Assembly: GCA_025454925.1 (NCBI GenBank) | Contig: JALONM010000024.1 | Location: 1-48,680 of the forward strand | Length of the DNA: 48,680 nucleotides | Direction of reading: 5' to 3' | DNA from: Cytophagaceae bacterium | Lineage (GTDB): Bacteria > Bacteroidota > Bacteroidia > Cytophagales > Cytophagaceae | Part shown: piece after piece, positions 2,381-36,255 of the stretch | How the letters are laid out: every line of letters begins with the position of its first letter | Position numbering within the stretch: the stretch's first letter is position 1 | Made by a program: the position numbers and the translations under genes | Notes under the pieces: generated by a model | Databases searched by the model: none | What the model was told of the DNA's origin: nothing | What the model saw: the letters and a program-made list of their open reading frames with translations, nothing else

Positions 2381-2669
2381 ATTTTCATAATTTTTAACCC
2401 TTCTAAGCTCATTTTAATTCATTTTTTGTCATAATAGGTTTGTTTTTTAACCTCATTTTTAATTTTTATAAATCTTAAAGCTGTTTTATGTTAAAAATGA
2501 ATGGTGTTTAGAAGAAAATGAGTGATTTTTGTAAAAGTAGCCTGAAAATTTACCCTCTTTTTCTCAGGTAGTAGTAATATTTAAATATTTACCTTTAATT
2601 TTTAAGGTAATTTACTCAAAAGTTGCGATTTCGTTTTGAGTATTTATACCTAATTTGTAAGTTAGTGTC
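2381..2669. other. AT-rich gene-free stretch upstream of the membrane protein
   Basis: About 290 very AT-rich bases with no gene. A small hairpin (TTACCTT/AAGGTAA, 2589-2610) and the palindrome ATATTTAAATAT next to it lie 60-90 bases before the start at 2670. They could belong to a promoter or operator, but no matching protein or consensus is recognised. Confidence 0.4.
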
Positions 2670-3239
2670 ATGAAATTGATTCATGATATGGAGAAATTAG
2701 GTGAAAGAGTTGGTTTAGGTGTAGAAAATATCCATTTAAAGGTTATAATATATAATTGTGGTGCCTTTTGTGTTTGTTTTTTGATGTTAATGGTGCTTAG
2801 CGCTTTTTTATCCATCCATCAGGAGTACTTTTTCGCAAACCAATCCTCTACAGCAAGCATCTTAATCGCAGTATCCAGTATCTTATTAGTGACTCTCTTA
2901 TTGGGTGGTTTAAACCATAACATTTCTTCTGCAAAAAATCAGACAGGTATTGTGGCATTGGGAGTTTTGATGGTGATAATCATCGGGCTTTTCAAGAACT
3001 ATGAATTCTTTGTGAATGGAATCTCTTTCCGCATTGCATGTATGGATAATCTGACAACTGGTTTTGTAAAGGATATAACATTTACGGATATAAAAGCGGC
3101 ATTCTTCCTGATTGGGGTGGTAACAGGCTCCATCACACTATTAGATATTCTTTTGAATACGGGTAACTGGACAAACAAGGAGGTAAAAGTGAAAGAAGAA
3201 ACAGAAGAAATAGTAGACGAACACGCTGTATTGGCATAA
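2670..3239 (+). CDS. Integral membrane protein of unknown function at the head of the nitrate island
   Basis: A 189-residue protein with about four hydrophobic segments, at roughly residues 25-48, 62-80, 90-108 and 145-162. An acidic cytoplasmic tail (KVKEETEEIVDEHAVLA) follows. There is no signal peptide and no motif that I recognise. The start ATG at 2670 is the first in frame after a stop. It lies 84 bases upstream of the porin gene with only a hairpin (3246-3274) between, so it may be the first gene of the nitrate operon or a separate unit whose transcript is processed there. A role in nitrate uptake or sensing is inferred from position only. Confidence 0.6.
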   Translation: MKLIHDMEKLGERVGLGVENIHLKVIIYNCGAFCVCFLMLMVLSAFLSIHQEYFFANQSSTASILIAVSSILLVTLLLGGLNHNISSAKNQTGIVALGVLMVIIIGLFKNYEFFVNGISFRIACMDNLTTGFVKDITFTDIKAAFFLIGVVTGSITLLDILLNTGNWTNKEVKVKEETEEIVDEHAVLA

Positions 3240-3245
3240 AAAAAT

Positions 3246-3274
3246 CCCGGGGAGGTCTGACCACCGCACCCGGG
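3246..3274 (+). other. Nested GC-rich hairpin between membrane protein and porin genes
   Basis: Outer stem CCCGGG (3246-3251 with 3269-3274) encloses a second stem GGTC/GACC (3254-3262). On the plus strand no T-run follows, so it is not a normal plus-strand terminator. An A-run precedes it, which gives minus-strand terminator geometry although no minus-strand gene is present. It is more likely an RNA processing or stability element in the leader of the porin gene. Confidence 0.6.
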
Positions 3275-3322
3275 CTTACACAATTGAATCATGGTTTAAC
3301 CCAAAATCCAAACTTAAAGAAA

Positions 3323-4846
3323 ATGAGAAAGCAGCTCTTTTCCAAGTTAATTCCTGCACTTTTTTTTGCAGTAATTACTCAATCTTACGGACAGTTCTCC
3401 TTAATCGGTACTGTCAGAACTCGAACAGAAATGCGTGAAGGCGTTGGAAATTTACCCTTAAAAGGCACCGGACAAGCGGGTTTTACCAGTCAGCGTACCA
3501 ACTTATTGCTTGGTTACAAATGGGATAAACTCAACTTCGTGACTCAATTGCGCGACGTGCGCGTATGGGGCCAGGATGCTTCCACTATTTCCAATAACGA
3601 TGGAAGTAAACTTTTCTTGCATGAAGCCTGGGGAGAAATTACTCTGGCCACTACCTCCGATACCACCTGTAAATTGAAAATAGATAACCTTTCAATTAAG
3701 GTAGGTCGCCAGGAATTGGTGTACGACGACGTACGTTTGCTCGGAAACCTCGACTGGTTGCAACAAGGTAGAAGGCATGATGCCGCCTTGCTCAAGTTCC
3801 TGCATCGCGGGTACCAGGCCGATCTAGGTTTTGCTTACAACCAAAACTCCGACGCATTCGGACGTGGCAACATTACCTACACGCCTGTGAATACCAACGG
3901 ATACACAGCTTCCAACGGGGTAGTCGTTACCCTTCCAGGAAACTTTGTTCCAAATGGATATGTGCCAACTTCGCCTCCAGGTACCAATGCCATCGGCGTC
4001 ATGTACAAAGGCATGCAGTTTCTGTACCTGAGCAAAAAATTCAAACAAACTAAAATTTCAGTATTGCTCTTTAAAGACGACTTCGCTCGTTCCAGACCTG
4101 ATACGATGACGGTAACCATTGGTACGAACACCTCCAAAATTGCCGGTAAGCGTTACGACAAACATGCTACATACAACCGTTACACCGTAGGTTCCAATTT
4201 CTCCACTACCATTGGAAATGCCTCCTCCGGTGTGAAAGTAGCATTGAGTGGTGGTTTCTTCTACCAGGGAAGCCAAGATAAAGACGGTAATACGCTCGAC
4301 GCATATCATTTCAATGCCTTAGCTCAAGTGCAAAAAGGGAAATTCATCGCTGGTCCTGGAATTGATTATTTATCCGGTAACGACGGAAATTCTACTTCTA
4401 AAGTAAACAACAGATTTGACCCGTTGTATGGTACTCCGCACCGCTACTGGGGTTTGATGGACTACTTCTACGTAGGAACAGGTGCTCCTTCTACCGGTTT
4501 GATGAATCCACACTTCAAATCGAAGTTTACGGCTAATAAATATTCCATCTCTGCTGACTATCATTACTTCAGCGCAGCGAACGATATCAAAAAGCCAACA
4601 GTAGCTACCGATGCAAATGTAGAAGACAGATACTTCGGAAGTGAAGTTGATATTCTTCTCAACTTCAACATCAACCGCTTCTGTGCGGTAGAGTCAGGGT
4701 ACTGTATGTTCTTCGGAACTCCTTCTCTAGAATATGTAAAACAAGGTTCAATTGATAAAACAAGAAAGAATGCTCAGTTCGCTTATGTGATGCTGACCAT
4801 TCGTCCAGATTTCTTCTTTACCAAACCTACTCCAATTAAAAATTAA
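3323..4846 (+). CDS. Alginate-export-family outer-membrane porin of the nitrate island
   Basis: A 507-residue protein. The ATG at 3323 gives a clean signal peptide (MRKQLFSKLIPALFFAVITQ, cleavage near SYGQ); an upstream in-frame TTG at 3284 would not. The mature protein is rich in alternating aromatic and polar residues, as in beta-barrels. Its features match the alginate_exp porin family: an early arginine/threonine-rich strand, a VGRQELVYDDVRLLGNLDW block at about residue 130, then a GRRHDAALLKF block. Known members export or import anionic sugars or other small solutes. Here it sits 42 bases before nrtA and most likely lets nitrate or nitrite cross the outer membrane. Substrate is inferred from context; the family call is solid. 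Confidence 0.8.
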   Translation: MRKQLFSKLIPALFFAVITQSYGQFSLIGTVRTRTEMREGVGNLPLKGTGQAGFTSQRTNLLLGYKWDKLNFVTQLRDVRVWGQDASTISNNDGSKLFLHEAWGEITLATTSDTTCKLKIDNLSIKVGRQELVYDDVRLLGNLDWLQQGRRHDAALLKFLHRGYQADLGFAYNQNSDAFGRGNITYTPVNTNGYTASNGVVVTLPGNFVPNGYVPTSPPGTNAIGVMYKGMQFLYLSKKFKQTKISVLLFKDDFARSRPDTMTVTIGTNTSKIAGKRYDKHATYNRYTVGSNFSTTIGNASSGVKVALSGGFFYQGSQDKDGNTLDAYHFNALAQVQKGKFIAGPGIDYLSGNDGNSTSKVNNRFDPLYGTPHRYWGLMDYFYVGTGAPSTGLMNPHFKSKFTANKYSISADYHYFSAANDIKKPTVATDANVEDRYFGSEVDILLNFNINRFCAVESGYCMFFGTPSLEYVKQGSIDKTRKNAQFAYVMLTIRPDFFFTKPTPIKN

Positions 4847-4888
4847 TCAAACGAAAATTAATCATTGTTGAACTCAAAGATTGGAACT

Positions 4889-6136
4889 ATGAAAAAGCTA
4901 TTCAATAATATCCAAACCCTCCGTTCCTGGAGATACAGTGTAGTAATCTTGTGTTGCCTATCACTTTTTTTTACCGCTGCCACCTTAGCGCCCAAGGGCG
5001 AAAAAATTCGGATCGGTTTCATTCCGCTTACCGACTGCGCGCCTATCGTCATGGCGAAAGAGCTTGGCTTGTTCGCCAAATATGGAGTAGACGTGGAAGT
5101 GACTAAAGAAGCTTCCTGGGCTTCGGTTCGCGATAAAATCCTGACCGGTGAATTGCAAGGCGCTCATTGCCTGTATACCATGCCACTTTCGGTATACACC
5201 GGAGTAGGAGGGAAAGCCGGTTCGGAAATGTACGTTGCTATGATGTTAAGTAACAACGGACAAGCGATTACACTTTCAAAAGATTTTTGTGGCCTGGTTG
5301 GATACAAACAATTTGCTAAGGTAAACGCATCGGTAAATACCGTTAAGCAAAAGAAAGAAGTAACCTTCGCCATGACCTTCCCGGGTGGTACTCACGACTT
5401 ATGGTTGCGCTATTGGATGGGAGCTACTGGTATCGACCAGAAAAAGGTGGGAATTATCACTATTCCTCCTCCACAAATGGTAGCCAACATGAAAGTTGAT
5501 AACATGGAAGGATATTGCGTTGGAGAACCTTGGGGCGGTGTAGCCGCTGCACAAAACATTGGATTTACGCACGTGGCCACTCAAGACATCTGGCAACATC
5601 ACCCAGAAAAAGCATTCGTGGTTAACAAAGAATTTGCAACAGGCCGCAAAGAAGACATGAAGAAAGTAATGAAAGCTATCCTGGAAGCATGTCAGTGGTT
5701 AGATGTACCTGCCAATCGTAAAAAAGCAGCGGCAATATTGGCAAAACCCTACTATGTAAATGCTCCCTTGGCCGTTATCGAAGCCCGCTTATTAGGTTCT
5801 AGTGATTTAGGTTGCGAATTGGGTGTGCAGAAATACAAAGACGACTACATGATGTTCTACCGTGGTGGTAATACCAACCTGCCTCGTAAATCGCATGCTA
5901 TATGGGCCATGGCACAGTATGTACGTTTCGGTTACCTGACTACTCCTCCCGATTATGCTGGCATCGCCGATAAATTGATATTGGATGACGTTTACCGCGA
6001 AGTGGCTAAGAGCATGAACGTGCCAATTCCGGATGATGATATGAAACCATTCACCATCAAATTGGATAACGTAACCTTTGATCCTAATAAACCTGCCGAA
6101 TCACTTAAACTTTACAAACCAGTTGCATTTAAATAA
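4889..6136 (+). CDS. nrtA: Nitrate/nitrite ABC transporter substrate-binding protein (NrtA-like)
   Basis: A 415-residue protein. The ATG at 4889 precedes a twin-basic, hydrophobic signal segment (residues about 17-38); a TTG at 4865 is a weaker alternative. The mature protein begins with the NrtA-type core IRIGFIPLTDCAPIVMAKELG, followed by VEVTKEASWASVRDKI and the nitrate-pocket region FPGGTHDLWLRYWM. EGYCVGEPWGG, typical of the NrtA/CmpA family, comes next. The family binds nitrate, nitrite or bicarbonate in the periplasm and delivers it to NrtB. I see no lipobox cysteine, so the protein may be soluble or tethered by an uncleaved signal. Permease and ATPase follow directly, separated only by an RNA hairpin. 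Confidence 0.9.
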   Translation: MKKLFNNIQTLRSWRYSVVILCCLSLFFTAATLAPKGEKIRIGFIPLTDCAPIVMAKELGLFAKYGVDVEVTKEASWASVRDKILTGELQGAHCLYTMPLSVYTGVGGKAGSEMYVAMMLSNNGQAITLSKDFCGLVGYKQFAKVNASVNTVKQKKEVTFAMTFPGGTHDLWLRYWMGATGIDQKKVGIITIPPPQMVANMKVDNMEGYCVGEPWGGVAAAQNIGFTHVATQDIWQHHPEKAFVVNKEFATGRKEDMKKVMKAILEACQWLDVPANRKKAAAILAKPYYVNAPLAVIEARLLGSSDLGCELGVQKYKDDYMMFYRGGNTNLPRKSHAIWAMAQYVRFGYLTTPPDYAGIADKLILDDVYREVAKSMNVPIPDDDMKPFTIKLDNVTFDPNKPAESLKLYKPVAFK

Positions 6137-6147
6137 TCTATGAATAT

Positions 6148-6188
6148 GGAGTAGCAGCAGGAATGAAAATTCCTGCTGCCAATACTCC
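6148..6188 (+). other. Intercistronic hairpin between nrtA and nrtB
   Basis: An 11-base perfect stem (6154-6164 with 6169-6179) is extended by six more pairs (6148-6153 with 6183-6188) across a three-base bulge. No T-run follows, so transcription should continue. Such hairpins after binding-protein genes commonly stabilise the upstream mRNA and raise binding protein over permease. Confidence 0.75.
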
Positions 6189-6224
6189 GGGATTCTTGAA
6201 TGATTCACCTAAACAAAAAGCATT

Positions 6225-7037
6225 ATGTCTACGTCGGAAATGAAAGCAGTATTGCAGTATAAGACAATTGAACTCATTAAAAACATCGGCTACTTCGTAG
6301 CCGGCTTAGTTGTCCTCGGATTGGTTTGGGAGTTCGTTAGCAGAAGGTTGGCTGGCGAATTACCCGGACCTTTAGCGACCTGGGAAGTTTTTAAAGGATT
6401 AATCGAAGAACCGTTTTACGATTACGGTCCAAACGATAAAGGTATCGGCTTGCAATTGTTAAGCTCATTGTCACGCGTAGGTATGGGGTTTCTGCTGGGT
6501 AGCCTTGTGGCTATCCCAGCGGGGATTCTCATGGGCGCCAGCAAAGTAGGCATGAAGTTGCTCAATCCTATTGTTCAAATTCTTCGTCCCGTTTCTCCTT
6601 TAGCTTGGTTTCCTATAGGGTTGGTTGCTTTTCAAAGTGCATCAAGTTCTACTGTATTCGTGATCTTTATCACCTCACTCTGGCCAACACTTATTAATAC
6701 GGCTTTCGGGGTTTCTTCAATTCCCGACGACCACAAAAACGTAGCTAAGGCCTTTGGCTTCTCCAAAATCAAATACATTTTTAAAGTAATTCTTCCATAC
6801 AGCCTTCCACACATCATCACCGGATTAAAACTTTCCGTTGGGGTGGCCTGGTTGGTAATCGTAGCTGCGGAAATGCTTTCCGGTGGCATCGGAATCGGAT
6901 TCTTTGTATGGGATAGTTGGAATGCGCTTAGCCTTGAGCGTGTATTGGCAGCCATACTTATCATTGGTACTGTTGGTTTATTGTTAGATAAATTCTTCTC
7001 GTTGCTACAAACTAAATTTTCGTATGACAAAAAGTAA
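6225..7037 (+). CDS. nrtB: Nitrate ABC transporter permease (NrtB-like)
   Basis: A 270-residue BPD_transp_1 permease with about six membrane segments. The EAA loop that contacts the ATPase is visible as KNVAKAFGFSKIKYIFKVILPYSLPHIITG at roughly residues 165-195. The segment PVSPLAWFPIGLVAF just before it is typical of the NrtB/SsuC/TauC subfamily. It forms the inner-membrane channel for nitrate delivered by the upstream binding protein. Its end overlaps the ATPase start by 14 bases, consistent with translational coupling. Specificity for nitrate is taken from the binding protein and the reductase downstream. Confidence 0.9.
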   Translation: MSTSEMKAVLQYKTIELIKNIGYFVAGLVVLGLVWEFVSRRLAGELPGPLATWEVFKGLIEEPFYDYGPNDKGIGLQLLSSLSRVGMGFLLGSLVAIPAGILMGASKVGMKLLNPIVQILRPVSPLAWFPIGLVAFQSASSSTVFVIFITSLWPTLINTAFGVSSIPDDHKNVAKAFGFSKIKYIFKVILPYSLPHIITGLKLSVGVAWLVIVAAEMLSGGIGIGFFVWDSWNALSLERVLAAILIIGTVGLLLDKFFSLLQTKFSYDKK

Positions 7038-7905
7038 TTATGACTATATGGAAACACTCACTAAAACTAAGACGGAACTTTGTATTGATGTGAAAGGTGT
7101 GAGTGTGCGGTTTAAAACTCCCAAAGGAGTATACACTGCCATTCAGAATATCGATCTGCAAATTTTCAAAGGAGAAATCATCTCCATCATTGGTCACTCA
7201 GGTTGCGGTAAATCCACACTTATGAGTACGATCAGCGGAATGGTGAAACCTACCGAAGGTGAAGTCATTGTAAATAATAAAAAGGTAACCGCACCTGGCC
7301 CCGACAGAGGCATTGTATTTCAGAATTATTCCTTGCTTCCCTGGATGACAGTGTATCAGAATATATACGAGGCCGTAGATTCTGTGCTAAGTTCTCTTTC
7401 TCGCGAAGAAAAAAGAGCCGTTGTAGACAAAGCCATTCAAATGGTAAACCTGACAACACACAAAGACAAACATCCACAGCAACTTTCCGGTGGTATGAAA
7501 CAGCGCGTAGCCATTGCCCGTGCTTTTGCCATCAATCCGAGCGTATTGTTGCTCGATGAGCCATTCGGAGCCTTGGATGCCTTAACCAAAGGATCCATGC
7601 ACGTGGAATTGTTGAAATTGTGGAATCTTGATAATCGTAACAAAACGATCATTATGGTGACCCACGATATTGAAGAAGCGATTTTCCTTTCCGATCGTAT
7701 TGTGGTAATGAACGATGGACCTGCTGCTACCATTCGCGAAATAGTAGATGTGCCGCTTCCTCGTCCGCGCGACAAACGTGAAATCGTAAATCTTCCGGAA
7801 TACCGCATCACCCGCGATCACCTGATCAGCTTGCTGATGGATAAATTCAGCATCATGGACCATGGTGTAGAGTATGTGGAAAAGCAGGAAGCAGAAGAAA
7901 TGTAG
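7024..7905 (+). CDS. nrtD: Nitrate ABC transporter ATP-binding protein (NrtD-like)
   Basis: A 293-residue ABC ATPase. Walker A GHSGCGKST is at residues 57-65, the Q-loop is VFQNYSLLPWMTV, the signature is LSGGMKQR at about 155, and Walker B/D-loop is LLLDEPFGALD at about 178. The H-loop is VTHD. This is the NrtD/SsuB/TauB class, without the extra substrate-binding domain of NrtC. The start at 7024 overlaps nrtB by 14 bases. The next ATG at 7048 is also possible, since neither has a Shine-Dalgarno. A hairpin and short T-rich run follow the stop. Confidence 0.9.
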   Translation: MTKSNYDYMETLTKTKTELCIDVKGVSVRFKTPKGVYTAIQNIDLQIFKGEIISIIGHSGCGKSTLMSTISGMVKPTEGEVIVNNKKVTAPGPDRGIVFQNYSLLPWMTVYQNIYEAVDSVLSSLSREEKRAVVDKAIQMVNLTTHKDKHPQQLSGGMKQRVAIARAFAINPSVLLLDEPFGALDALTKGSMHVELLKLWNLDNRNKTIIMVTHDIEEAIFLSDRIVVMNDGPAATIREIVDVPLPRPRDKREIVNLPEYRITRDHLISLLMDKFSIMDHGVEYVEKQEAEEM

Positions 7906-7912
7906 AAATGTT

Positions 7913-7936
7913 GGGGCTGTTATCAGCCCCTTAATT
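7913..7936 (+). terminator. Weak terminator or attenuator after nrtD
   Basis: Seven-base perfect GC-rich stem GGGGCTG/CAGCCCC (7913-7919 with 7924-7930) with a 4-base loop, followed by TTAATT. The short T-run suggests partial termination, which would lower reductase expression relative to the transporter. Confidence 0.55.
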
Positions 7937-7970
7937 CGTTAAGGAGCAAAGCAATTGTCAACGCAATACT

Positions 7971-10900
7971 ATGAATCGGTTTAAAACTACTTGTTGTTAT
8001 TGTGGCGTAGGCTGCGGAATCGAGGTCATTCAAGATCGTCAGGGACGCATCCATGTAGAGGGCGACAAAGACCATCCGGTAAATCGCGGCATGCTCTGCT
8101 CCAAAGGAATGAATCTGCATTACACGGCGCAGGAAAAAGGCGATCGCCTGTTGTATCCTGAAATGCGTTGGAATAGAAATAGCCCTTTGCAACGTGTTTC
8201 CTGGGATCAGGCACTCGATCGCAGTGCAGCTGTGTTTAAAAGTTTAATTCAACGTTTTGGCCCCGACTCTGTGGGCTTCTACGTTTCCGGACAATGCCTT
8301 ACCGAAGAATATTATGTAGTCAATAAACTGATCAAAGGTTTTATTGGCTCCAACAACATCGATACCAACAGCCGGCTCTGCATGAGTTCCGCCGTGGTAG
8401 GTTACAAGCTTACCCTTGGCGAAGACTCGGTGCCGGCAAGTTACGAAGATATTGAACTGGCCGATTGTTTTTTAGTCACTGGAGCCAACCCAGCCTGGTG
8501 CCATCCAATTCTTTGGCGCCGCGTGGAGCAGGCAAAAGCAAACAATCCCGATATTAAAATCATCGTGGTGGATCCACGCAAAACACAATCGTGTTCCATC
8601 GCCGATTTGCATTTGCAAATCAATCCGGGTACCGACATCGTGCTCTACAACGCCATCGGACGCTTGCTTATTGAAATGGAAAAGGTAGACTATGAGTTTA
8701 TCGCACACCATTGCAATGGCTTCGAACAATACCGCGAACACGTGATGAAGCGCAGCCTGAAAGAAGCGGCCTCCATCTGCGGCGTAAAAGCCGAAGACAT
8801 TCGCTGGGCCGCCGAGTACATCGGGCGTTCCAACGGATTCATCAGCATGTGGGCTATGGGGCTCAATCAGTCGGTTATTGGAGTTAATAAAAATGTATCG
8901 CTCATAAGCCTCAGTTTGATAACAGGGAAAATTGGTAAACCCGGATCCGGACCTTTCTCATTAACCGGGCAACCCAATGCCATGGGAGGAAGAGAAGTAG
9001 GGGGATTGGCCAATTTGTTACCAGCGCACCGCGATCTGTTGAATCCCGCACACCGCGAGGAAGTAGAGAAATTCTGGGGCGGTACTAAAATTAAAGACAA
9101 GCCTGGCTTTACGGCCACCGAAATGTTCGACGCACTCGCAGACGGTCGCATGAAAGCCATCTGGATTATTTGCACTAATCCCTTGGTGAGTTTGCCCGAT
9201 GCACGTAAAATGGAGGCAGCACTCAAGAATGCCAAATTTGTGGTCGTTCAGGATATGTCGGACAAGCACGAATGTATTCCGTATGCCGATGTAGTGCTAC
9301 CCGCCGCTACCTGGGCTGAAAAGGAAGGCACCATGACCAATTCCGAACGCCGTATTTCCTATTTGCATAAAATTACGGAAGCTCCAGGCGAAGCGCTGCC
9401 CGATACAGACATACTGCTTCGCTTTGCCCGTAAAATGGGCTTTCATGGATTCGATTTTTCAAATTGCGAAGAAGTATTCAACGAACATGCGGCCCTTACC
9501 AAAGGCACCAATATCGACATCAGCGCACTTACCTATGATCATCTCAAACAGCATGGTACCGCCCAATGGCCATTCACGGCGGCACAGCCTGGTACCAAGC
9601 GTTTGTTTACCGATGGTAAATTTTATACGCCTACCGGCAAAGCCAACATCCACTCCGTTCCCGATCATAACGAATCGGAGCCTACCAGCCTGGAATTTCC
9701 CTTGGTCCTAACCACCGGTCGTATTCGCGATCAGTGGCATACCATGACCCGCACCGGAAAAGTCAACAAACTCAACCAGCATATACCGCAGCCCTTTCTC
9801 GAGATACATCCCAAAGATGCCGAAGAAAGAGGCATTGCCGATAACGATATTGTAGTCATCCAAGGCCATAGGGGCGAAACCCAGGTGAAAGCCAAAGTGA
9901 CCAAAGACATTAAAAGGGGCGTGGTGTTTCTGCCCATGCACTGGGGCAAAACAAAAGGCAAAGACTTCAGTAGGGCCAATAATCTTACCAGTCCCTTGCT
10001 CGATCCTAAATCCAAAGAACCGGATTTTAAATTTGCTGCCGTCCAGGTAACCAAATATCAAAAACCCAAACAGCGTATACTCGTGATTGGAGCTGGTGCC
10101 GCGGCCTATGGATTCGTGAAAAGTTTCAGGGAACGAAACAAAGAAGATGAAATTCTTGTCTTCAGCAAAGAATCCCAATCCTTTTACAACCGTGTCATGC
10201 TTCCCGATTATATCGCCGGAACGCAGTCCTGGCCGCAATTGCTGAAACTTACCGAAGATGAAGAAGCAGCTTTGGGAGTGCGGGTGCTGAAGGGGATATC
10301 CATTACACAAATAGACCGCGAGCGCAAATTACTCATGGACAGCGAAGGTCGCGAGCACCGCTACGATTTGCTGGTGTTGGCTACAGGAAGCCGCTCAGCA
10401 GTACCTAAAGATATTCCCAGTCAGCTCGAAGGTTTTTTCACCTTACGTACCAAGCTGGATGCCGACCGTCTCATGCAACACTTGCAACCACAAGACCACG
10501 TGGTAATAGTGGGTGGTGGATTGCTGGGATTAGAATTATCTTCTTCCTTGCGGGAACTAAATTTCAGAGCCTCCATCATTCAGCGAACCTCCAGGCTAAT
10601 GAGTCGCCAACTCGATGCCGTTGGGGCTTCTCTATTGAAAGAAGAATTAATTGATCGAGGAATTGAGATTTATTACAACGACGAAATCCAAACATTCATT
10701 GGCAGAGAAAAAATTACCGCAGTAAAATTAAAGAGTGGTCATACCCTGCCTTGCACCGCGGTGGTGTACGCTACAGGTACTACGCCCAACATTGAACTCG
10801 CCAAAGCCTGCGGCTTAAAAGTGCAGCGGGGGGTGGAAGTCAACGATTATTTACAAACCAACGATCCCGATATTTTTGCCATCGGAGAAATTGCCGAACA

Positions 10901-11456
10901 TCAGCAGAATTTATACGGAATCACCGCTGCTGCCGAAGAACAAGCCGAAACCCTAGCGGCATTTCTGAATGGAGACCTTTTCAGTTTTTATCAAGGGTCA
11001 CTTTCCATGAACATTCTCAAAATACCAGGATTGGATCTTTGTTCATTAGGCGTTACTGAATTACCCGACGACAGCGGCGAATATGAAGAAGTAGTATTCA
11101 TTGATAAAGCTACACGCTATTATAAAAAATGCATCATCCACCGCGATAAGCTCATAGGAGCCATTCTTATTGGAGATAAAACCGAGTTCAATGAATTTCG
11201 AGAGTTGATTAAAAATAAAATCGAATTGTCTGAAAAGCGGCTTTCCTTGCTTCGCTCAGGCAAAAAGGCAGAAGAAGTAATAGGGAAATTAGTGTGTTCC
11301 TGCAACAACGTGGGCGAAGGAAACATCGTGAAGAAGATTGAAGAAGGAGTGGATGATCTCAAAGAACTTTGCTTGTGCACAGGAGCTGGAACAGGCTGTG
11401 GAAGCTGTAAATCCGAAGTGAAGAACATTCTGGAACGTAGTTTAAAATTGGCCTGA
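7971..11456 (+). CDS. nasA: Assimilatory nitrate reductase fused to FAD/NAD(P)H oxidoreductase and BFD-like [2Fe-2S] domains
   Basis: An 1161-residue, three-part enzyme. Residues 1-690 are a bis-MGD molybdenum reductase. A [4Fe-4S] motif lies at C8-x2-C11-x3-C15 with a fourth cysteine near 43. The probable Mo-ligand Cys137 is in SRLCMSSAVVGY, and a C-terminal molydop-binding domain follows (TTGRIRDQWHTMTRTGK). Residues about 700-1080 are a pyridine-nucleotide-disulfide-type flavoprotein: FAD motif GAGAAAYG at about 707 and NAD motif IVGGGLLGLELS at about 847. Residues about 1105-1161 form a BFD-like [2Fe-2S] domain (CSC ... GAGTGCGSC). The layout suggests electrons pass from NAD(P)H through FAD and [2Fe-2S] to Mo within one chain, reducing nitrate to nitrite in the cytoplasm. 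The flavoprotein/BFD half resembles the N-terminal part of NirB. The AAGGAG at 7941 is too far from the ATG to act as a Shine-Dalgarno. Confidence 0.88.
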   Translation: MNRFKTTCCYCGVGCGIEVIQDRQGRIHVEGDKDHPVNRGMLCSKGMNLHYTAQEKGDRLLYPEMRWNRNSPLQRVSWDQALDRSAAVFKSLIQRFGPDSVGFYVSGQCLTEEYYVVNKLIKGFIGSNNIDTNSRLCMSSAVVGYKLTLGEDSVPASYEDIELADCFLVTGANPAWCHPILWRRVEQAKANNPDIKIIVVDPRKTQSCSIADLHLQINPGTDIVLYNAIGRLLIEMEKVDYEFIAHHCNGFEQYREHVMKRSLKEAASICGVKAEDIRWAAEYIGRSNGFISMWAMGLNQSVIGVNKNVSLISLSLITGKIGKPGSGPFSLTGQPNAMGGREVGGLANLLPAHRDLLNPAHREEVEKFWGGTKIKDKPGFTATEMFDALADGRMKAIWIICTNPLVSLPDARKMEAALKNAKFVVVQDMSDKHECIPYADVVLPAATWAEKEGTMTNSERRISYLHKITEAPGEALPDTDILLRFARKMGFHGFDFSNCEEVFNEHAALTKGTNIDISALTYDHLKQHGTAQWPFTAAQPGTKRLFTDGKFYTPTGKANIHSVPDHNESEPTSLEFPLVLTTGRIRDQWHTMTRTGKVNKLNQHIPQPFLEIHPKDAEERGIADNDIVVIQGHRGETQVKAKVTKDIKRGVVFLPMHWGKTKGKDFSRANNLTSPLLDPKSKEPDFKFAAVQVTKYQKPKQRILVIGAGAAAYGFVKSFRERNKEDEILVFSKESQSFYNRVMLPDYIAGTQSWPQLLKLTEDEEAALGVRVLKGISITQIDRERKLLMDSEGREHRYDLLVLATGSRSAVPKDIPSQLEGFFTLRTKLDADRLMQHLQPQDHVVIVGGGLLGLELSSSLRELNFRASIIQRTSRLMSRQLDAVGASLLKEELIDRGIEIYYNDEIQTFIGREKITAVKLKSGHTLPCTAVVYATGTTPNIELAKACGLKVQRGVEVNDYLQTNDPDIFAIGEIAEHQQNLYGITAAAEEQAETLAAFLNGDLFSFYQGSLSMNILKIPGLDLCSLGVTELPDDSGEYEEVVFIDKATRYYKKCIIHRDKLIGAILIGDKTEFNEFRELIKNKIELSEKRLSLLRSGKKAEEVIGKLVCSCNNVGEGNIVKKIEEGVDDLKELCLCTGAGTGCGSCKSEVKNILERSLKLA

Positions 11457-11474
11457 TAACTAATTCTGAAATCT

Positions 11475-12923
11475 ATGGGAACCATTGAAGAAAAAGATTC
11501 TTACATCAAGGCAAACTTTAAAGGAGGAATTGTTTCTATTCCCGATTTGCAGGAGTTTTTAAAACTTACCAAATCACTTGGAGAACAGCACATCTCTCCA
11601 GGCTTGCGTCAGGAAATGTATGTTTTTTCCAACGAAGCTACCTCTCACGAAAATTTGTCACAGGAATATCCAACCCTACAACTCGAGCAAGGAGAAGATG
11701 ATTTCCCAAACATTGTTAGTTCCTACGCAGCAGAAGATATTTTTACTTCACATGCCAATTGGCTCACCGAAGGCATTTACAGGGATATTCTCGATAGTTT
11801 CGATTACACACCTTCGCTTAAAATAAATATTTGCGATAATACGCAACCGCTGGTACCGCTCTTCACCGGGCACCTCAGCTTTGTGTGTTCATCGTATCCC
11901 AATTTTTGGTACCTCTATGTGCGCCATCCACGCTTAGGAACTTCAGAATGCTGGCCCGATCTCATTTACAGCACCGAAATCAGTTTCATTTCCAAATGGT
12001 TGGAAGTGCAATTGCAGGAAGTAGAAGAAGTAGAAATCCCTATTCTGCATCAAGCGCTTCAAGCCGAACATAAACTCATCACACGCAAAAAAGACCAGGA
12101 CCTGGTGCTGCCTCGCTTGCGTTTTCCCTATTACGAAGGAATGAATTCCTATCAGGATGGCTACTGGTTGGGAATCTTTCGTCGCAATTTCGATTATCCG
12201 GTAGCATTCATGGAAGACCTGGCATTGCTCTGCGACCAAACTCGGATTTCCCACGTCTACATTAGTTCCTGGCGTTCCTTCATCATCAAAGGCATTAAAG
12301 AGCAAGACCGCATCCGCTGGGAAAAACTATTGGGGAAGCATGGTATTAACATACGCCATTCAGGAATCGAACTGAACTGGCAAATTGAACCCAATGATAT
12401 CCCTTCCTTAGAATTAAAAAATTATCTCGTTGAGCAATTCAATAAACGAGATATCCGCACTTTTGGATTAAGTTTCTATATCGGTAAACTGGAAGAGCAT
12501 CGCTATTCCAACGTAGTGATTACCGAAGGCTCTAAAAAGAATACCTATCATTTATATTACCTCGAAAATTTCAATTCCAACGGGAAGCATAAAAAACTAT
12601 ATGCTTCTGATATCAAAATGGAAGCCCTGGCCGACAGCCTCGAAAAATTAAGTAAACTCTACTTTCGTGTCCTCAATGCCGACGCTGAATTGGTGCGCAC
12701 CGAAAAGAGAGAAAAGGTGGATCAGGTCAAACATCGCACGGTTTACCAATGCCAGGAATGCTGGACGGTATACGATGAAATTGAAGGGGAACCCGCTCGT
12801 GGAATCGCGAGGGGAACCTTGTTTACACTGTTGCCAACCGATTGGTGCTGCTCCCTTTGCGAAGCCCCTCGGAATTCGTATCTTCCGGTTTCGACAGAAA
12901 TACTGGTACACAGTAAAAAGTAA
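11475..12923 (+). CDS. Rubredoxin-tailed protein with degenerate nitrite/sulfite reductase ferredoxin-like repeats
   Basis: A 482-residue protein starting 18 bases after the reductase. The C-terminus (about residues 425-475) is a rubredoxin: YQCQECWTVYD followed by WCCSLCEA, i.e. two CxxC iron knuckles. The N-terminal part (GGIVSIPDLQEFLKLTKSLGE ... LRQEMYVF) and the centre (DLALLCDQTRISHVYISSW ... WEKLLGKHGIN) look like the two NIR/SIR ferredoxin-like half-domains of siroheme reductases. The siroheme/4Fe-4S cysteine motifs (C-x5-C, C-x3-C) are absent; the few other cysteines are isolated. I therefore read it as an electron carrier or scaffold for the nitrate reductase rather than an active nitrite reductase. 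This is an inference; partner and direction of electron flow are unknown. Confidence 0.75.
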   Translation: MGTIEEKDSYIKANFKGGIVSIPDLQEFLKLTKSLGEQHISPGLRQEMYVFSNEATSHENLSQEYPTLQLEQGEDDFPNIVSSYAAEDIFTSHANWLTEGIYRDILDSFDYTPSLKINICDNTQPLVPLFTGHLSFVCSSYPNFWYLYVRHPRLGTSECWPDLIYSTEISFISKWLEVQLQEVEEVEIPILHQALQAEHKLITRKKDQDLVLPRLRFPYYEGMNSYQDGYWLGIFRRNFDYPVAFMEDLALLCDQTRISHVYISSWRSFIIKGIKEQDRIRWEKLLGKHGINIRHSGIELNWQIEPNDIPSLELKNYLVEQFNKRDIRTFGLSFYIGKLEEHRYSNVVITEGSKKNTYHLYYLENFNSNGKHKKLYASDIKMEALADSLEKLSKLYFRVLNADAELVRTEKREKVDQVKHRTVYQCQECWTVYDEIEGEPARGIARGTLFTLLPTDWCCSLCEAPRNSYLPVSTEILVHSKK

Positions 12924-29033: not shown

Positions 29034-30242
29034 ATGATTCCCGTTCATTCGCCAAACAAAGACCATCCAAGAGATCAACGATTTCTAAATGTTTCTACCC
29101 TGGTTGTAAAAGTGACCAATCGATGTAATCTCGATTGTTCCTATTGCTACGAGCACATCATTCCGAAAGGAAGTGATATGTCGGTGGAGGTTTTTAAAGA
29201 ATTAGCCAGCCGTGTAATCCGATCTACATCTGCTCCTGAAATAACTTTTTTGTTCCATGGAGGAGAGCCAACGTTGTTGGATAACAGTTGGTATCAGCAC
29301 TGCTTGGAGTATGCGCTGGAACTAGGACGTATTTTTCAAAAGACCATTCATTTTTCTATTCAGACGAATTTACTTGCGCTTTCTGAATCCAAAATAGACT
29401 TGTTTAAGCGCTTCGGCATTAAACCAGGTGTGAGTTTGGATAATTCCGAATCCACAATACATAGCGAGCGGGGAAAAGAATCAAAAGTATTTCGAAATTT
29501 TCTTCGACTGCGGGAAGAAGGGATTTCTTGCGGAATTCTAAGTACCATCAACGAATCGAACTACGATCAATTTTATGACATTTGTACTTTTCTGCATAAA
29601 GAAGCCGGTGTGAAAAGTTTCAAGGCCAATGTGGCGCTTCCGGTAGGAAGAGGGTATGGAAAAAATGCGTTACAGGCAGATCAAATCATTCAAGCCCAAA
29701 CAGATATTTTGCGTTACATGTTGGATCATTATGCTCAAATTATAGAACAAAATACCTGGCTGGAGTTAAGACGTTTTTTTGCCGAAGATACTCAGCTCAA
29801 ATCCACTTTGTGCCACGATAAGGTCTGCGGAGCCGGTACCCGCGTTTTAGGCGTTACCACCGACGGCGCTCTGTTGCCTTGCGGTCGATTTGCCTGGAGC
29901 GATCGCTCTTTTTACCTGGGTACCATTCAGGAAGAAAATGAAATGTCCGGATCCGTTGAAAAATTTATGAACCTTGCCCCTGAAAATTGGCAGCATTGTA
30001 CTTCGTGTCAGGCTCGAAGTATTTGCAGGTTTGGATGTCAGGCCTTTATTGTGCGGTCCCAGCAGAAATTAAATCTTGAATGCATCCCAACTCAAAAACG
30101 ATATCAATTCTTTCTTGAACATCAGAAAGCGTTAAAAAATATGATGGATGCTCATGCTCGCAACGCTCGAAGTTCATGGGAGCAATACGGACATTTATAC
30201 ACCTTTTCTACCACTGGAACACTCAAAGGAATCGCTTCATGA
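29034..30242 (+). CDS. Radical SAM/SPASM peptide maturase-like enzyme
   Basis: A 402-residue protein. The SAM cluster motif CNLDCSYC gives Cys31, Cys35 and Cys38, followed by FHGGEPTLL and a SIQTN strand. The C-terminal SPASM region has the full auxiliary set: Cys260 and Cys265 (CHDKVCGAGTR), Cys283 (LLPCGRF), Cys322-x2-Cys325-x5-Cys331-x3-Cys335, and Cys350. The ALPVGRGYG segment before it is also typical. Enzymes of this architecture modify ribosomal peptides (cross-links, epimers, thioethers) or activate sulfatases. No sulfatase is nearby. Its stop codon overlaps the start of the TPM protein by four bases (ATGA at 30239-30242), so that protein with its Y-S-D repeats is the likely substrate. 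The reaction itself is inferred, not shown. Confidence 0.85.
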   Translation: MIPVHSPNKDHPRDQRFLNVSTLVVKVTNRCNLDCSYCYEHIIPKGSDMSVEVFKELASRVIRSTSAPEITFLFHGGEPTLLDNSWYQHCLEYALELGRIFQKTIHFSIQTNLLALSESKIDLFKRFGIKPGVSLDNSESTIHSERGKESKVFRNFLRLREEGISCGILSTINESNYDQFYDICTFLHKEAGVKSFKANVALPVGRGYGKNALQADQIIQAQTDILRYMLDHYAQIIEQNTWLELRRFFAEDTQLKSTLCHDKVCGAGTRVLGVTTDGALLPCGRFAWSDRSFYLGTIQEENEMSGSVEKFMNLAPENWQHCTSCQARSICRFGCQAFIVRSQQKLNLECIPTQKRYQFFLEHQKALKNMMDAHARNARSSWEQYGHLYTFSTTGTLKGIAS

Positions 30243-31285
30243 AAAATTTCAAACATTTTATTCTAGCCATCCATCTGGTATGGATTTTTTTCCTCCAGGC
30301 ACAACAAATTCCCAAACAAGGGAAAGATACTTTTGCATATGATTATGCAGGAGTTTTAAGCGCCAGTGAAGTCATAACACTGGATAATACATTGCGAAAA
30401 TTCAGGGATTCTACCCAGCATAAATTGGTACTTGTAATTGTTGAAAATCTTCAAGGATATGAAATAGAGGAATTCACCAACGCTTGGTTTAATGATTGGA
30501 AAATTGGAAAGGAAGGATATAATAATGGTGTTCTTTTGATGGTTTCGCAGCAGGATCGAAAGGTGCGCATTGAGGTGGGCTACGGTTTGGAAGCTGCGCT
30601 TACCGATGTGCAAAGCGATCGCATAATCGAAGAAATTATTGTTCCTGCTTTTAAGTCCAATAATCCATACGATGGGTTAAGCAGAGCAGTCTATGCCATT
30701 ATTAATCAAATCCAGTCGAGTGGAAACGCGCCAACGATTGATGGGGAAAAGCATACAAGCTTTTCGTATACCAGAACCTGGCTGGGAGGGGATACCTTTA
30801 CCTATGTTTTTCCCGCTATTTTTTTCGCCTTGGCCTACATCGTAGCCGGAGTACTATTATTTAGAAAAGGAAAGACTACCTTTAAAAACGTTGCATTGTA
30901 TTTTCTGATGATTATCGGGGCTTATTTTTTTCTTATGCTCTTAATCGATTTTATAGCTCTTCAATACTACGATACGCAGGTGGTTATGGATTTTACTGAA
31001 ATCTTCGGCGAGTACGTATTTGTCCGGTTATTTGTAGCCGTGTTATACGGCTTATTTATGGCCATTCCCGGAGGAGTCGTATTGATTTTCATTAAAGGAA
31101 TATTTTTTAGTTCATCCGATTCCTCCAATTCGTATTCCTCCTCCTCTTCATCAAGTTCGTATTCAGATTATAGTGATTCTTCTTCGTCCTATTCCGATTA
31201 CAGCGATTCATCCTATTCTGATTATTCCGACTATAGCGATTCTGGTGGCTCTTCCGGAGGAGGAGGGGCAAGTGGAAGTTGGTAA
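30239..31285 (+). CDS. TPM-domain (YgcG-like) membrane protein with Tyr-Ser-Asp repeat tail
   Basis: A 348-residue protein. The signal peptide MKNFKHFILAIHLVWIFFLQA starts at the ATG overlapping the maturase stop. Residues about 33-160 are a TPM domain (DYAGVLSASEVITLDNTL ... VLMVSQQDRKVRIEVGYGLE ... DRIIEEIIVPAFK). Three hydrophobic segments follow at about 183-203, 215-235 and 255-285. The last 58 residues are low-complexity: serine-rich, then seven YSD tripeptides (residues 308-334), then the GGSSGGGGASGSW end common in YgcG-like proteins. The Tyr/Asp repeat is not part of the usual glycine/serine tail. Translational coupling to a radical SAM/SPASM enzyme suggests that the tail is modified. 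The normal role of TPM proteins in bacteria is poorly known. Confidence 0.85.
   Translation: MKNFKHFILAIHLVWIFFLQAQQIPKQGKDTFAYDYAGVLSASEVITLDNTLRKFRDSTQHKLVLVIVENLQGYEIEEFTNAWFNDWKIGKEGYNNGVLLMVSQQDRKVRIEVGYGLEAALTDVQSDRIIEEIIVPAFKSNNPYDGLSRAVYAIINQIQSSGNAPTIDGEKHTSFSYTRTWLGGDTFTYVFPAIFFALAYIVAGVLLFRKGKTTFKNVALYFLMIIGAYFFLMLLIDFIALQYYDTQVVMDFTEIFGEYVFVRLFVAVLYGLFMAIPGGVVLIFIKGIFFSSSDSSNSYSSSSSSSSYSDYSDSSSSYSDYSDSSYSDYSDYSDSGGSSGGGGASGSW
31160..31240 (+). repeat. Seven Y-S-D tripeptide units in the TPM protein tail
   Basis: In frame, the units read TATTCAGAT, TATAGTGAT, TATTCCGAT, TACAGCGAT, TATTCTGAT, TATTCCGAC and TATAGCGAT. They come as two, two and three consecutive units, separated by serines. 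All seven codon triples differ, so the repeat is conserved as protein but not as DNA. Confidence 0.95.
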
Positions 31286-34023: not shown

Positions 34024-35874
34024 TTAGTTTTCATCTTCTTCCTCTGGATCCATGATCAGATAAGACCAACCATGTCCGTCTGTACTTATGGTTTTCTTCC
34101 GTTCTTTCATGGCTTTGGTTACTTTTTTGCTAAACGTCCAACAAGTACTTTGACGAAGTTTTAGCATTTGCGAAAGTTCCAGCGAAGTAATTTTTCCTTT
34201 GTTCGCATATACCAGGAATACCATGTAAAAGGCTTTCAATACATCAAATTTCAATCGGTGAAAAATGGTGTAAGCCGTTGGCGATTCGTCGTAACGGCAA
34301 CGGGTGCAACGCTTGGAATATTTTTCTTTACCATCGCAGAAGCGCAAGTGCCCGCATTTTCTGCAAGTATAGCCCTTTTCCCATTTGAGTTCTGCCAGGT
34401 ATCGGTAACAAGAGTCTTCCGTTGGGAAAATTTTTCGGAATTCTTCAAAATCAACTTCCTCCTGCATCACCCGCGCCTTTACCAGGTCTTTTACATTGTT
34501 TTGGAGTTTCCGGTTATCCGCATCCAGCAATAAGTTCATCCGCTGAATTTCTTCCGCCTGATCTTTTAATTTTTCATTCGCATTTTCTAAAAGAGAATTC
34601 TTTTCAGCAATTTCTTTGGTGCGTTCTTTTACTTTTTCTTCCAGTTCACGGTTTACTTTGTCTTTCAACCGCTCATTCTCCTGCAACTGTTGGATGATTT
34701 TCTCTTTGGCTTGTTCTCGCTCTGCACGTATGATGCGCAGTCGATCACTGAGTGCAAAGGATAGCATCACCACTTCGAATACCATTCCAATGTTAAAAGA
34801 ATACACCGACAAGATTGTGTTCAAGTGATACAAGCCGGTCATGCGAAGCAATAACAAAATGATGCTGATGAACATGAAGGAGTAGCCCAACAGAAAATAA
34901 CGGGCCTGGCGGAAACCACTTTTCCAACATAAGATTGCGGCAATATATAAAATGGAAAATGGAATAATATAAATTGGAAAGTCTTTGGATATTTTGAATA
35001 CCGTAAGATCTAAAAAGAAAAACGGAACATATACAATCATCATCCAGGTTAGTAACTGGTCGAGTTTGGGTAGATTGGTTTTAAGCTCCAGGAAGACTTT
35101 AGAATAAAAGGTGAAACTCAGTACCAGCAATAGCGGTGCAATTCCGGCCAACACGCTGTTAAGGCCCGGAGAGTCTGGCCATAAATATTGAAAGCCTAAT
35201 CCATCCTCAGAGAGCGTAAGCAGTGCACAACAAGCCACGTATACTACATAGAACAGGTAAAGATTTTCTTTAAGAGAAAAATATATTATTAAGTTGTAAA
35301 TGGCCATGATAATGAGGATGCCATAAAAAATCCCCAACAAGTAATATTCATTAAGGGCATACCAGATCAGGTAATTGTTGCTGGTAAGCTTAAAGATAAA
35401 TGGATTATGATGGCTGGATTTGATTTTCGCGTAAAACCATTGAGGCGTGGGGCCTACATGCAAATCGAAAACAAAATTTTTATGTTGGTAGGCCCTGATC
35501 CCAAACGGCCTTGAATAACCGGCTTGTATGAGCTTAATGCCGGCTGGTGTAGTCTGGTACAAATCAAATTCATCAATATGAGGATCCGCATTTTCAAGCA
35601 TCCATCGGATCGAACTGCTGGCATTTGATTGAAGGCAGAAGCGAACCCAATACGTATTGTCAACGTCCTTAACAAAGGGAAATCCGTTACCACTATGAGG
35701 AACAAATGTCTGTTTATCGATTTGAGCTATGTCTACCTTATTGCTTATATCCTCAAAAACCTCCAGGTATTTGGTCAATTCAATAAACTCAGAGGAATCA
35801 GATAGTTTAATACAATCCGGGAAACAAGGGAGTGTGGTTAAACACAAGAATAATAGAAATGTTCTTTTGATCAT
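34024..35874 (-). CDS. 7TMR-DISM membrane receptor fused to an IS1595-type transposase zinc ribbon/HTH
   Basis: A 616-residue protein. The ATG at 35874 gives the signal peptide MIKRTFLLFLCLTTLPCFPDC; the upstream ATG at 35982 would bury it. Residues about 25-160 are a 7TMR-DISMED2-like periplasmic domain (YWVRFCLQSNASSSIRWMLENADPHIDEFDLYQ). About seven membrane helices follow to residue ~380, then a coiled coil of about 80 residues (REQAKEKIIQQLQENERLKDK onward). The last ~140 residues match the N-terminal part of IS1595-family transposases: YRYLAELKWEKGYTCRKCGH, a second CTRC knuckle, SPTAYTIFHRLKFDVLKAFY and a helix-turn-helix-like TSLELSQMLKLRQSTCWTF. The DDE nuclease domain is absent. A membrane-tethered DNA-binding sensor is inferred. 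Confidence 0.85.
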   Translation of the reverse strand: MIKRTFLLFLCLTTLPCFPDCIKLSDSSEFIELTKYLEVFEDISNKVDIAQIDKQTFVPHSGNGFPFVKDVDNTYWVRFCLQSNASSSIRWMLENADPHIDEFDLYQTTPAGIKLIQAGYSRPFGIRAYQHKNFVFDLHVGPTPQWFYAKIKSSHHNPFIFKLTSNNYLIWYALNEYYLLGIFYGILIIMAIYNLIIYFSLKENLYLFYVVYVACCALLTLSEDGLGFQYLWPDSPGLNSVLAGIAPLLLVLSFTFYSKVFLELKTNLPKLDQLLTWMMIVYVPFFFLDLTVFKISKDFPIYIIPFSILYIAAILCWKSGFRQARYFLLGYSFMFISIILLLLRMTGLYHLNTILSVYSFNIGMVFEVVMLSFALSDRLRIIRAEREQAKEKIIQQLQENERLKDKVNRELEEKVKERTKEIAEKNSLLENANEKLKDQAEEIQRMNLLLDADNRKLQNNVKDLVKARVMQEEVDFEEFRKIFPTEDSCYRYLAELKWEKGYTCRKCGHLRFCDGKEKYSKRCTRCRYDESPTAYTIFHRLKFDVLKAFYMVFLVYANKGKITSLELSQMLKLRQSTCWTFSKKVTKAMKERKKTISTDGHGWSYLIMDPEEEDEN

Positions 35875-36255
35875 GAAAACCCGAAAATGAATCCTCAATT
35901 TAAATGAAATTTTATATCCGTCATAATCGCAATTTTTTTGCGCAATAGGAAAAGCATTTACCGCAAAGCACATTTTATGCATTAGGCAAGGCTATAGGCT
36001 TGTATACTATATATTGGAATCTTTGGTTTTCAATACGTTGAATTATTTTCTTCGATTTTGAATCAAATCAGTACGTGAGATCAAAGTGAAAAATTATACC
36101 ACGACTTCTTGATCGATTCCAACCTCCCACGTTTTATTTTTTTTTCATCATACATTTAATTTTCTGCAAGGCTAAGGCCTTATAAAACCTTATACAAAAG
36201 TATTCATGAGAAAATAGGTAGAAATATATACTTTTGGGACTTAGTTTTTTAAAGT
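35875..36255. other. Divergent gene-free stretch
   Basis: About 380 AT-rich bases between the divergent receptor and GH3 genes. An imperfect direct repeat (GCAAGGCTATAGGCTTGTAT at 35986; GCAAGGCTAAGGCCTTATAA at 36166) is the only structure besides the GH3 -7 box. Confidence 0.5.
36229..36236 (+). promoter_or_regulatory. Bacteroidota -7 box (TACTTTTG) of the GH3 gene
   Basis: Perfect TAnnTTTG match, 19 bases before the ATG at 36256. No clear -33 TTTG. Confidence 0.5.

Follow-up and report, generated by a model that had tools for sequence, protein, structure and literature searches.

Cross-linking of the triceptide type is a known feature of small natural-product peptides; aspartate is a cross-link partner for PapB also, and in HxsABCD a repeat-bearing protein stands beside two SPASM maturases. 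The sections of PMC11002830 drawn on here describe YxdB among the triceptide (precursor peptide) enzymes, as forming a C3(Tyr)-Cbeta(Asp) bond, and OscB as a radical S-adenosylmethionine (SAM) enzyme making three-residue cyclophanes. The subject of the present analysis is a gene pair at positions 29034 to 31285 of a contig of 48,680 nucleotides from a Cytophagaceae bacterium (GCA_025454925.1, JALONM010000024.1, positions 1 to 48,680 of the forward strand; this whole stretch is called the window), in which the gene of a radical SAM/SPASM enzyme overlaps that of a TPM membrane protein whose tail carries seven Tyr-Ser-Asp (YSD) units. We consider it likely that this enzyme is a maturase oxidising Tyr-x-Asp (YxD) units, most probably to Tyr-Asp cyclophanes, and that it would do so here on a cytoplasmic tail of the TPM protein.

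Set beside YxdB (WP_226048651.1), by description only and not by sequence, the window enzyme would have in common with it that Tyr and Asp at positions i and i+2 are joined by a radical SAM enzyme, as the sections cited state for YxdB (PMC11002830) and as we infer for the bond here; it differs in that YxdB is described among enzymes of precursor peptides, whereas the units here lie on a membrane-protein tail or, in relatives, on the enzyme's own C-terminus. A Tyr-Asp cyclophane made by YxdB being already known, the novelty would lie in the substrate and not in the bond. By profile, the window enzyme matches 69 NCBIfam models; in each of the 25 that were listed it falls short of the cut-off, and it is assigned to none of these families. 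The best of those listed is the PapB ranthipeptide maturase (NF047865, 118.5 bits against a cut-off of 340), from which the system also differs in that the YSD tail of the window is without cysteine; the anaerobic sulfatase maturase anSME (TIGR03942, 109.4 against 349.45) is the closest fold, but the window enzyme scores below its cut-off, and there is no sulfatase signature at the sources scanned; GrrM/OscB (TIGR04261) are likewise radical SAM/SPASM enzymes, producing three-residue cyclophanes, but the window enzyme is below their cut-off (70.3 against 310), as it is below those of the cyclophane synthases YhhB (NF041707, 64.6 against 445) and FxsB (TIGR04269, 63.3 against 370) and of HxsB (TIGR03978, 60.1 against 370). 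HxsABCD differs furthermore in its motif, which is His-Xaa-Ser and not Y-x-D, and in having two maturases as against the one found here.

The enzyme itself (402 residues; 29034..30242, on the forward strand like every feature given below) belongs to the radical SAM proteins by PF04055 (60 bits, cut-off 29.5) and by the CxxxCxxC motif of the SAM-binding 4Fe-4S cluster (C31, C35, C38; 29124..29147), which is followed by eight auxiliary-type cysteines (C260, C265, C283, C322, C325, C331, C335, C350; 29811..30083). In an alignment of 16 relatives, one row of which is cut off, the motif is invariant and the eight others are invariant or nearly so. Their spacing, C265-x12-G278-x4-C283, C322-x2-C325-x5-C331-x3-C335 and C350, agrees with the SPASM auxiliary-cluster motif, C-x(9-15)-G-x4-C ... 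CxxCx5Cx3C ... C; the Pfam SPASM model was not called for the window enzyme in the Pfam scan, and among relatives it is above the cut-off in locus L109 (26.8 against 21.5) and below it in L108 (19.7). The AlphaFold model (predicted local distance difference test, pLDDT, 78.8) has as its closest solved fold anSME (4k38; Z 31.1, root-mean-square deviation 2.9, 340 residues, 20% identity), and the next matches are thioether and other peptide maturases.

The stop codon of the enzyme overlaps by four bases (ATGA, 30239..30242) the start of the gene of the proposed substrate (30239..31285; 348 residues), a TPM protein by PF04536 (131.7 bits, cut-off 22.1). The calling of open reading frames (ORFs) would by itself also permit an upstream ATG at 30176, and the start at 30239 was picked by eye because a signal-peptide-like start results. 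There follow the TPM domain (Pfam match, 30338..30706), three hydrophobic, putatively membrane-spanning segments (residues 185-293; 30791..31117), the array of YSD units, proposed as modification sites (31160..31240), and a Gly/Ser-rich C-terminal end finishing in SW (31241..31282), which is common to ordinary TPM tails. Ordinary TPM/YgcG-type (PF04536) proteins share with the window protein the signal-like start, the TPM domain, the membrane segment or segments and the Gly-rich end, but they have a GGFGG or Ser-rich stretch where it has the YSD array. The original prediction had described the enzyme with its three and eight cysteines, the four-base overlap and the YSD units, of which there are exactly seven, and all of this was confirmed.

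Across the whole source genome the YSDYSD pattern has four matches, 4/4 in this TPM tail, and when the 70 residues of the tail were shuffled 20,000 times, seven YSD never arose, the maximum being four. The seven units are written as seven different 9-mers, with serine codons of both families (four TCN, three AGY), which argues that the array is not a product of recent DNA slippage, and that a protein motif has been kept by selection. When nine arrays were shuffled (eight TPM tails and a repeat protein of Fluviicola), the YSD count was above every shuffle in eight, the weakest array being one Saprospira tail of three units, matched by 21 of the 20,000 shuffles.

The association of the array with the enzyme was followed in an order-wide sample of 213 genomes, at an enzyme threshold of E 1e-50 and with a motif of at least three tandem YSD units. 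The enzyme is present in nine of these genomes and the motif in five, all five among the nine (5/9 enzyme-positive against 0/204 enzyme-negative; Fisher p = 3.6e-8). Of the four enzyme-positive genomes without the tandem triple, G094 has the repeat on the enzyme itself, G541 (L106) and G552 (L100) have TPM tails with YSD at other spacing, and in G559 (L098) YSD was not found. Among 98 relatives, some enzyme match was obtained in 26 genomes at E 0.001, and clear orthologs (E under 1e-110) only in the source genome, G079, G056, G041 and G094; YSD runs of at least three units, counted as overlapping pattern matches, occur in 4/5 of these genomes and in 0/93 of the others (p = 1.4e-6). From 27 enzyme-negative relatives one TPM tail each was read, taken from the top scores of a longer list; one of these runs off its contig, and none has at least three YxD among its last 90 residues. 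The array is also absent from the TPM tails read in six more enzyme-negative genomes (G005, G007, G022, G037, G066, G082). For Bacteroidota genomes with readable TPM tails the proportion is 8/9 enzyme-positive against 0/33 enzyme-negative (p = 7.6e-8), leaving out G485 (truncated), G487 (cis type, with the repeat on the enzyme) and G489 (enzyme cut off); G487 and G489 have ordinary TPM ends, and with these two counted the ratio becomes 8/11. The remaining TPM tails read, from enzyme-negative genomes or from paralogs in the same genomes, resemble GGFGG or are rich in Ser. Finally, frames dense in YxD (four or more per 45 residues) number seven in the 231 kilobases (kb) of 14 family loci, each of them a TPM tail, an enzyme or a neighbouring substrate-like protein; the neighbourhoods of TPM genes used as controls (42 loci, 140 kb) and those of other radical SAM hits (25 loci, 81 kb) contain no such frame. 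The pairing of enzyme and substrate is thus well supported by the comparison of sequences. Its earlier formulation, in which the Y-x-D units are what the enzyme acts on, is borne out in part: both of the checks that could be run came out in its favour, with no tandem YSD in the 204 enzyme-negative genomes, no array in the TPM tails read from 33 such genomes, and no sulfatase signature in 15 sources (14 family loci and the window), an action on the units themselves being likely.

The family was delimited by a scan of genome contigs. Of the 16 loci obtained, 14 have E under 1e-75 and, with the window and G056 added, make 16 enzymes; L110 and L111, weak hits with E 3e-6 and 4e-5, were dropped. 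A Y-x-D partner, next to the enzyme or elsewhere in its genome, was seen in 14 of the 16 cases, as a separate TPM tail (eight), a truncated protein (one), the enzyme's own C-terminus (three) or an adjacent protein or peptide (two). The YSD-tail TPM gene lies directly upstream of the enzyme in L100, 3.3 kb upstream in G041 (Xanthocytophaga flavus), 4.5 kb upstream in G056, and on a different contig in G079 (contig 5, with the enzyme on contig 25); Saprospira grandis Lewin and DSM 2844 have three such genes each, away from the enzyme, and the L106 genome has two. L102 has a YSD-rich C-terminal piece of a protein at the contig end, and no YxD was found on reading past the stop of its enzyme (one TAA lies inside the profile match). 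On the enzyme itself, the C-terminus holds ten YxD in two near-identical blocks in L104 and seven in L105, and the enzymes with such cis tails, L103 included, come from a cyanobacterial metagenome-assembled genome (MAG), a Cytophagales MAG and one unclassified bacterium. The 12 other enzymes whose C-terminus is readable have no YxD beyond their last SPASM cysteine, and the cis and trans distributions are complementary. The adjacent partners are a 212-residue protein with 20 YxD and, by eye, an RR-type N-terminus (L108, a Fluviicola MAG) and a 77-residue peptide with a VTGG leader-like element (GG-type, by eye) and four YxD (L109), the latter neighbourhood looking like a classical peptide cluster of the enzyme family. 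The enzyme tree has no resolution at its deep nodes, and does not tell a single origin of the cis tails from multiple ones. A TPM tree of 58 rows needs five changes of the YSD label (5-6 in bootstraps, with the starred branches alone forcing two), which would fit repeated capture of the substrate by the enzyme, gains and losses not being distinguished.

Several details of these loci may be recorded apart. The tail blocks of L104 (L104:9947-11413), made of YxD units (SYTDTTYFDRSYSDYRD), are a duplication within the cis tail. Near the enzyme of L105, from an Okeania MAG, a long ORF of a short repeated RYFPFQIF-like unit (L105:6130-8331) is probably a DNA repeat array and not a gene. At L108:8848-9999 a GrrM/OscB cyclophane synthase sits between the YSD-repeat protein and the family enzyme; the repeat of the former, SNYSDF, contains an F-S-N-like together with a Y-S-D motif, and two maturases may share one substrate. 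L109 combines the peptide (606-836) with a family enzyme carrying about 95 extra N-terminal residues (2534-3751) and with a second radical SAM protein. Among the enzymes of L096-L101 and L106, several, most of them with their TPM substrate encoded separately, have in common near the C-terminus a short stretch resembling QFRIKDKNGQWKSYKL, which is a candidate for substrate binding; it is carried also by the L098 enzyme, for which no substrate was found.

As to the location of the tail, a simple Kyte-Doolittle hydropathy scan, which is not a trained predictor, was applied to ten YSD-tail TPM proteins. After the TPM domain it gave one membrane segment in seven, three in two (the window and L118) and none in one (L127 of G488); an N-terminal segment was flagged in seven of the ten, and not in the window protein, whose signal peptide was recognised by eye. 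If the TPM domain is outside, an odd number of segments would leave the tail inside, in reach of a cytoplasmic iron-sulfur enzyme; for nine of the ten proteins the prediction accordingly puts the YSD tail in the cytoplasm. This goes against the original prediction, which had placed the substrate at the surface or in the periplasm.

The mechanism that could be proposed is that a SPASM-type radical SAM maturase would recognise Tyr-x-Asp units and oxidise each of them, most likely by joining the Tyr ring to the beta-carbon of the Asp two residues on, giving a three-residue cyclophane with a change of -2 Da per unit. In the window the substrate would be the TPM protein whose gene overlaps that of the enzyme; its C-terminal tail, by prediction, extends into the cytoplasm and would there be accessible to an oxygen-sensitive iron-sulfur enzyme. 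In relatives the units would be offered by TPM tails without linkage to the enzyme gene, by the C-terminus of the enzyme itself, or by a neighbour, either a repeat protein or a short peptide resembling a precursor. Between the fixed Tyr and Asp of the cis tails and small substrates, the middle position is taken by S, P, Q, R, K, T, F, H, Y, N, E or W, which argues for a Tyr-Asp bond and against serine chemistry; with the precedent of YxdB, a cyclophane on these units is plausible, by analogy and by reasoning from the motif. SPASM enzymes perform many reactions, and the chemistry of this one is not readable from its family because it is below all the listed cut-offs, so that the units could be modified otherwise, for example by an ether from Tyr-O to Asp, by some other i/i+2 bond, or by a change to one residue alone (oxidation, epimerisation, decarboxylation); this we regard as unlikely, for the fixed spacing of Tyr and Asp around a free middle favours a bond between the two, and the one YxD enzyme met with in the sections cited makes C3(Tyr)-Cbeta(Asp) (PMC11002830). 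That anSME is the closest solved fold and a sequence relative would suggest an oxidation of the YSD serine to formylglycine, which becomes very improbable when the serine is seen to be replaced by eleven other residues in cis tails and precursors, the anSME profile to score so low and the sulfatase signature to be missing from the 15 sources scanned. Least credible of all, with almost no weight in our judgement, is a neutral low-complexity drift of a Ser/Gly-rich TPM tail joined to the enzyme by chance: TPM tails are indeed low-complexity and variable (GGFGG, SSYSS), but the shuffles, the codon diversity and the co-occurrence tests contradict it.

Some of the observations weigh against the proposed cyclophane maturase and its substrates. 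The radical SAM core starts about 20 residues into the window enzyme, with no room for an N-terminal leader-binding domain; repeats on a membrane protein could serve to bring such an enzyme in, and the units might then be an unmodified docking tag holding it to its true substrate or to the membrane. We judge this distinctly improbable, since in L103-L105 the repeats are on the enzyme itself and recruitment is needless, and since in L109 and L108 they are held by a precursor-like peptide and a neighbouring repeat protein, the usual positions of substrates. L103 is moreover a weak cis case, with three YxD in its tail and one more in the preceding helix, and in an AlphaFold model of L105, without cofactors, the cis tail is disordered (pLDDT under 50) and no docking is seen. 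The Fluviicola MAG has a true GrrM/OscB enzyme (368.2 bits, cut-off 310) beside its YSD protein too, and the units there are not creditable to the enzyme family alone. No YSD was found in L098/G481, a fragmented MAG with seven TPM domains (five read to the stop, two off contigs), and no YxD partner was seen in L107/G489, where the enzyme is cut at the contig end. The array of G079 is less codon-diverse (five units, three different 9-mers, all AGY serines). Finally, MAGs account for several members of the family, and the independent cases are fewer than the count suggests, since two Saprospira are nearly identical to each other, as are two of the genus g32. The one YSDYSD match of the L098 genome was rejected as a substrate, as it is not in a repeat protein.

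Beyond the order, where the enzyme and YSD-tail surveys likewise cover samples of genomes, no close relatives of the enzyme were found on viral contigs, and none on plasmids at 1e-20. A cyanobacterial sample gave 1/222 genomes at E 1e-40, the Okeania MAG itself, so that the enzyme is not common in the cyanobacteria sampled, and its Okeania contig may be misbinned. In a phylum-wide sample 5/395 genomes reach E 1e-20, namely the source genome and four weak matches (1e-21 to 2e-29), and no YxD-rich neighbour was found in the 3-4 kb read around these four. Tandem YSD in the same 395 genomes gave three matches: the window, one reading YTDYWDYTD, and one outside the listed ORFs. Next to one of the four weak matches, a distant relative of the enzyme (E 2.4e-29), a peptide of 74 residues (L113:2613-2837) ends in NEYSDYGNIYKYAFF with a single YSD, and is perhaps a one-unit precursor of a related family.

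Elsewhere in the window, positions 4865-12923 look, by eye only, like a nitrate uptake and assimilation cluster, with an ABC transporter, a molybdopterin reductase fused to an NAD(P)H-type domain, and a reductase with a rubredoxin-like end. The ORF at 34024-35982 reads by eye as a membrane sensor with a coiled coil, and its C-terminus resembles what we take, by eye, to be a transposase-type zinc ribbon, an unusual fusion.

Taken together, the findings suggest that a modification resembling that of triceptides is made to a resident membrane protein, or to the enzyme itself. The broader proposition, that the family uses Tyr-Asp i/i+2 cross-links to alter the structure of resident proteins permanently, be it on cytoplasmic TPM tails or on the own C-terminus of a self-modifying maturase, and not for a secreted peptide, is put forward tentatively, with a chance that we would set a little short of even; as a guess at the cellular role, the TPM protein could gain a stiffened or protease-resistant tail. 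The system offers a clear motif and named strains (Saprospira grandis Lewin and DSM 2844, Xanthocytophaga flavus YF14B1). If the modification does take place on TPM tails and on the enzyme itself, it would be a modification at the level of proteins with a role in the cell, and the function of the tails of TPM, a widespread family of membrane proteins, would become testable.

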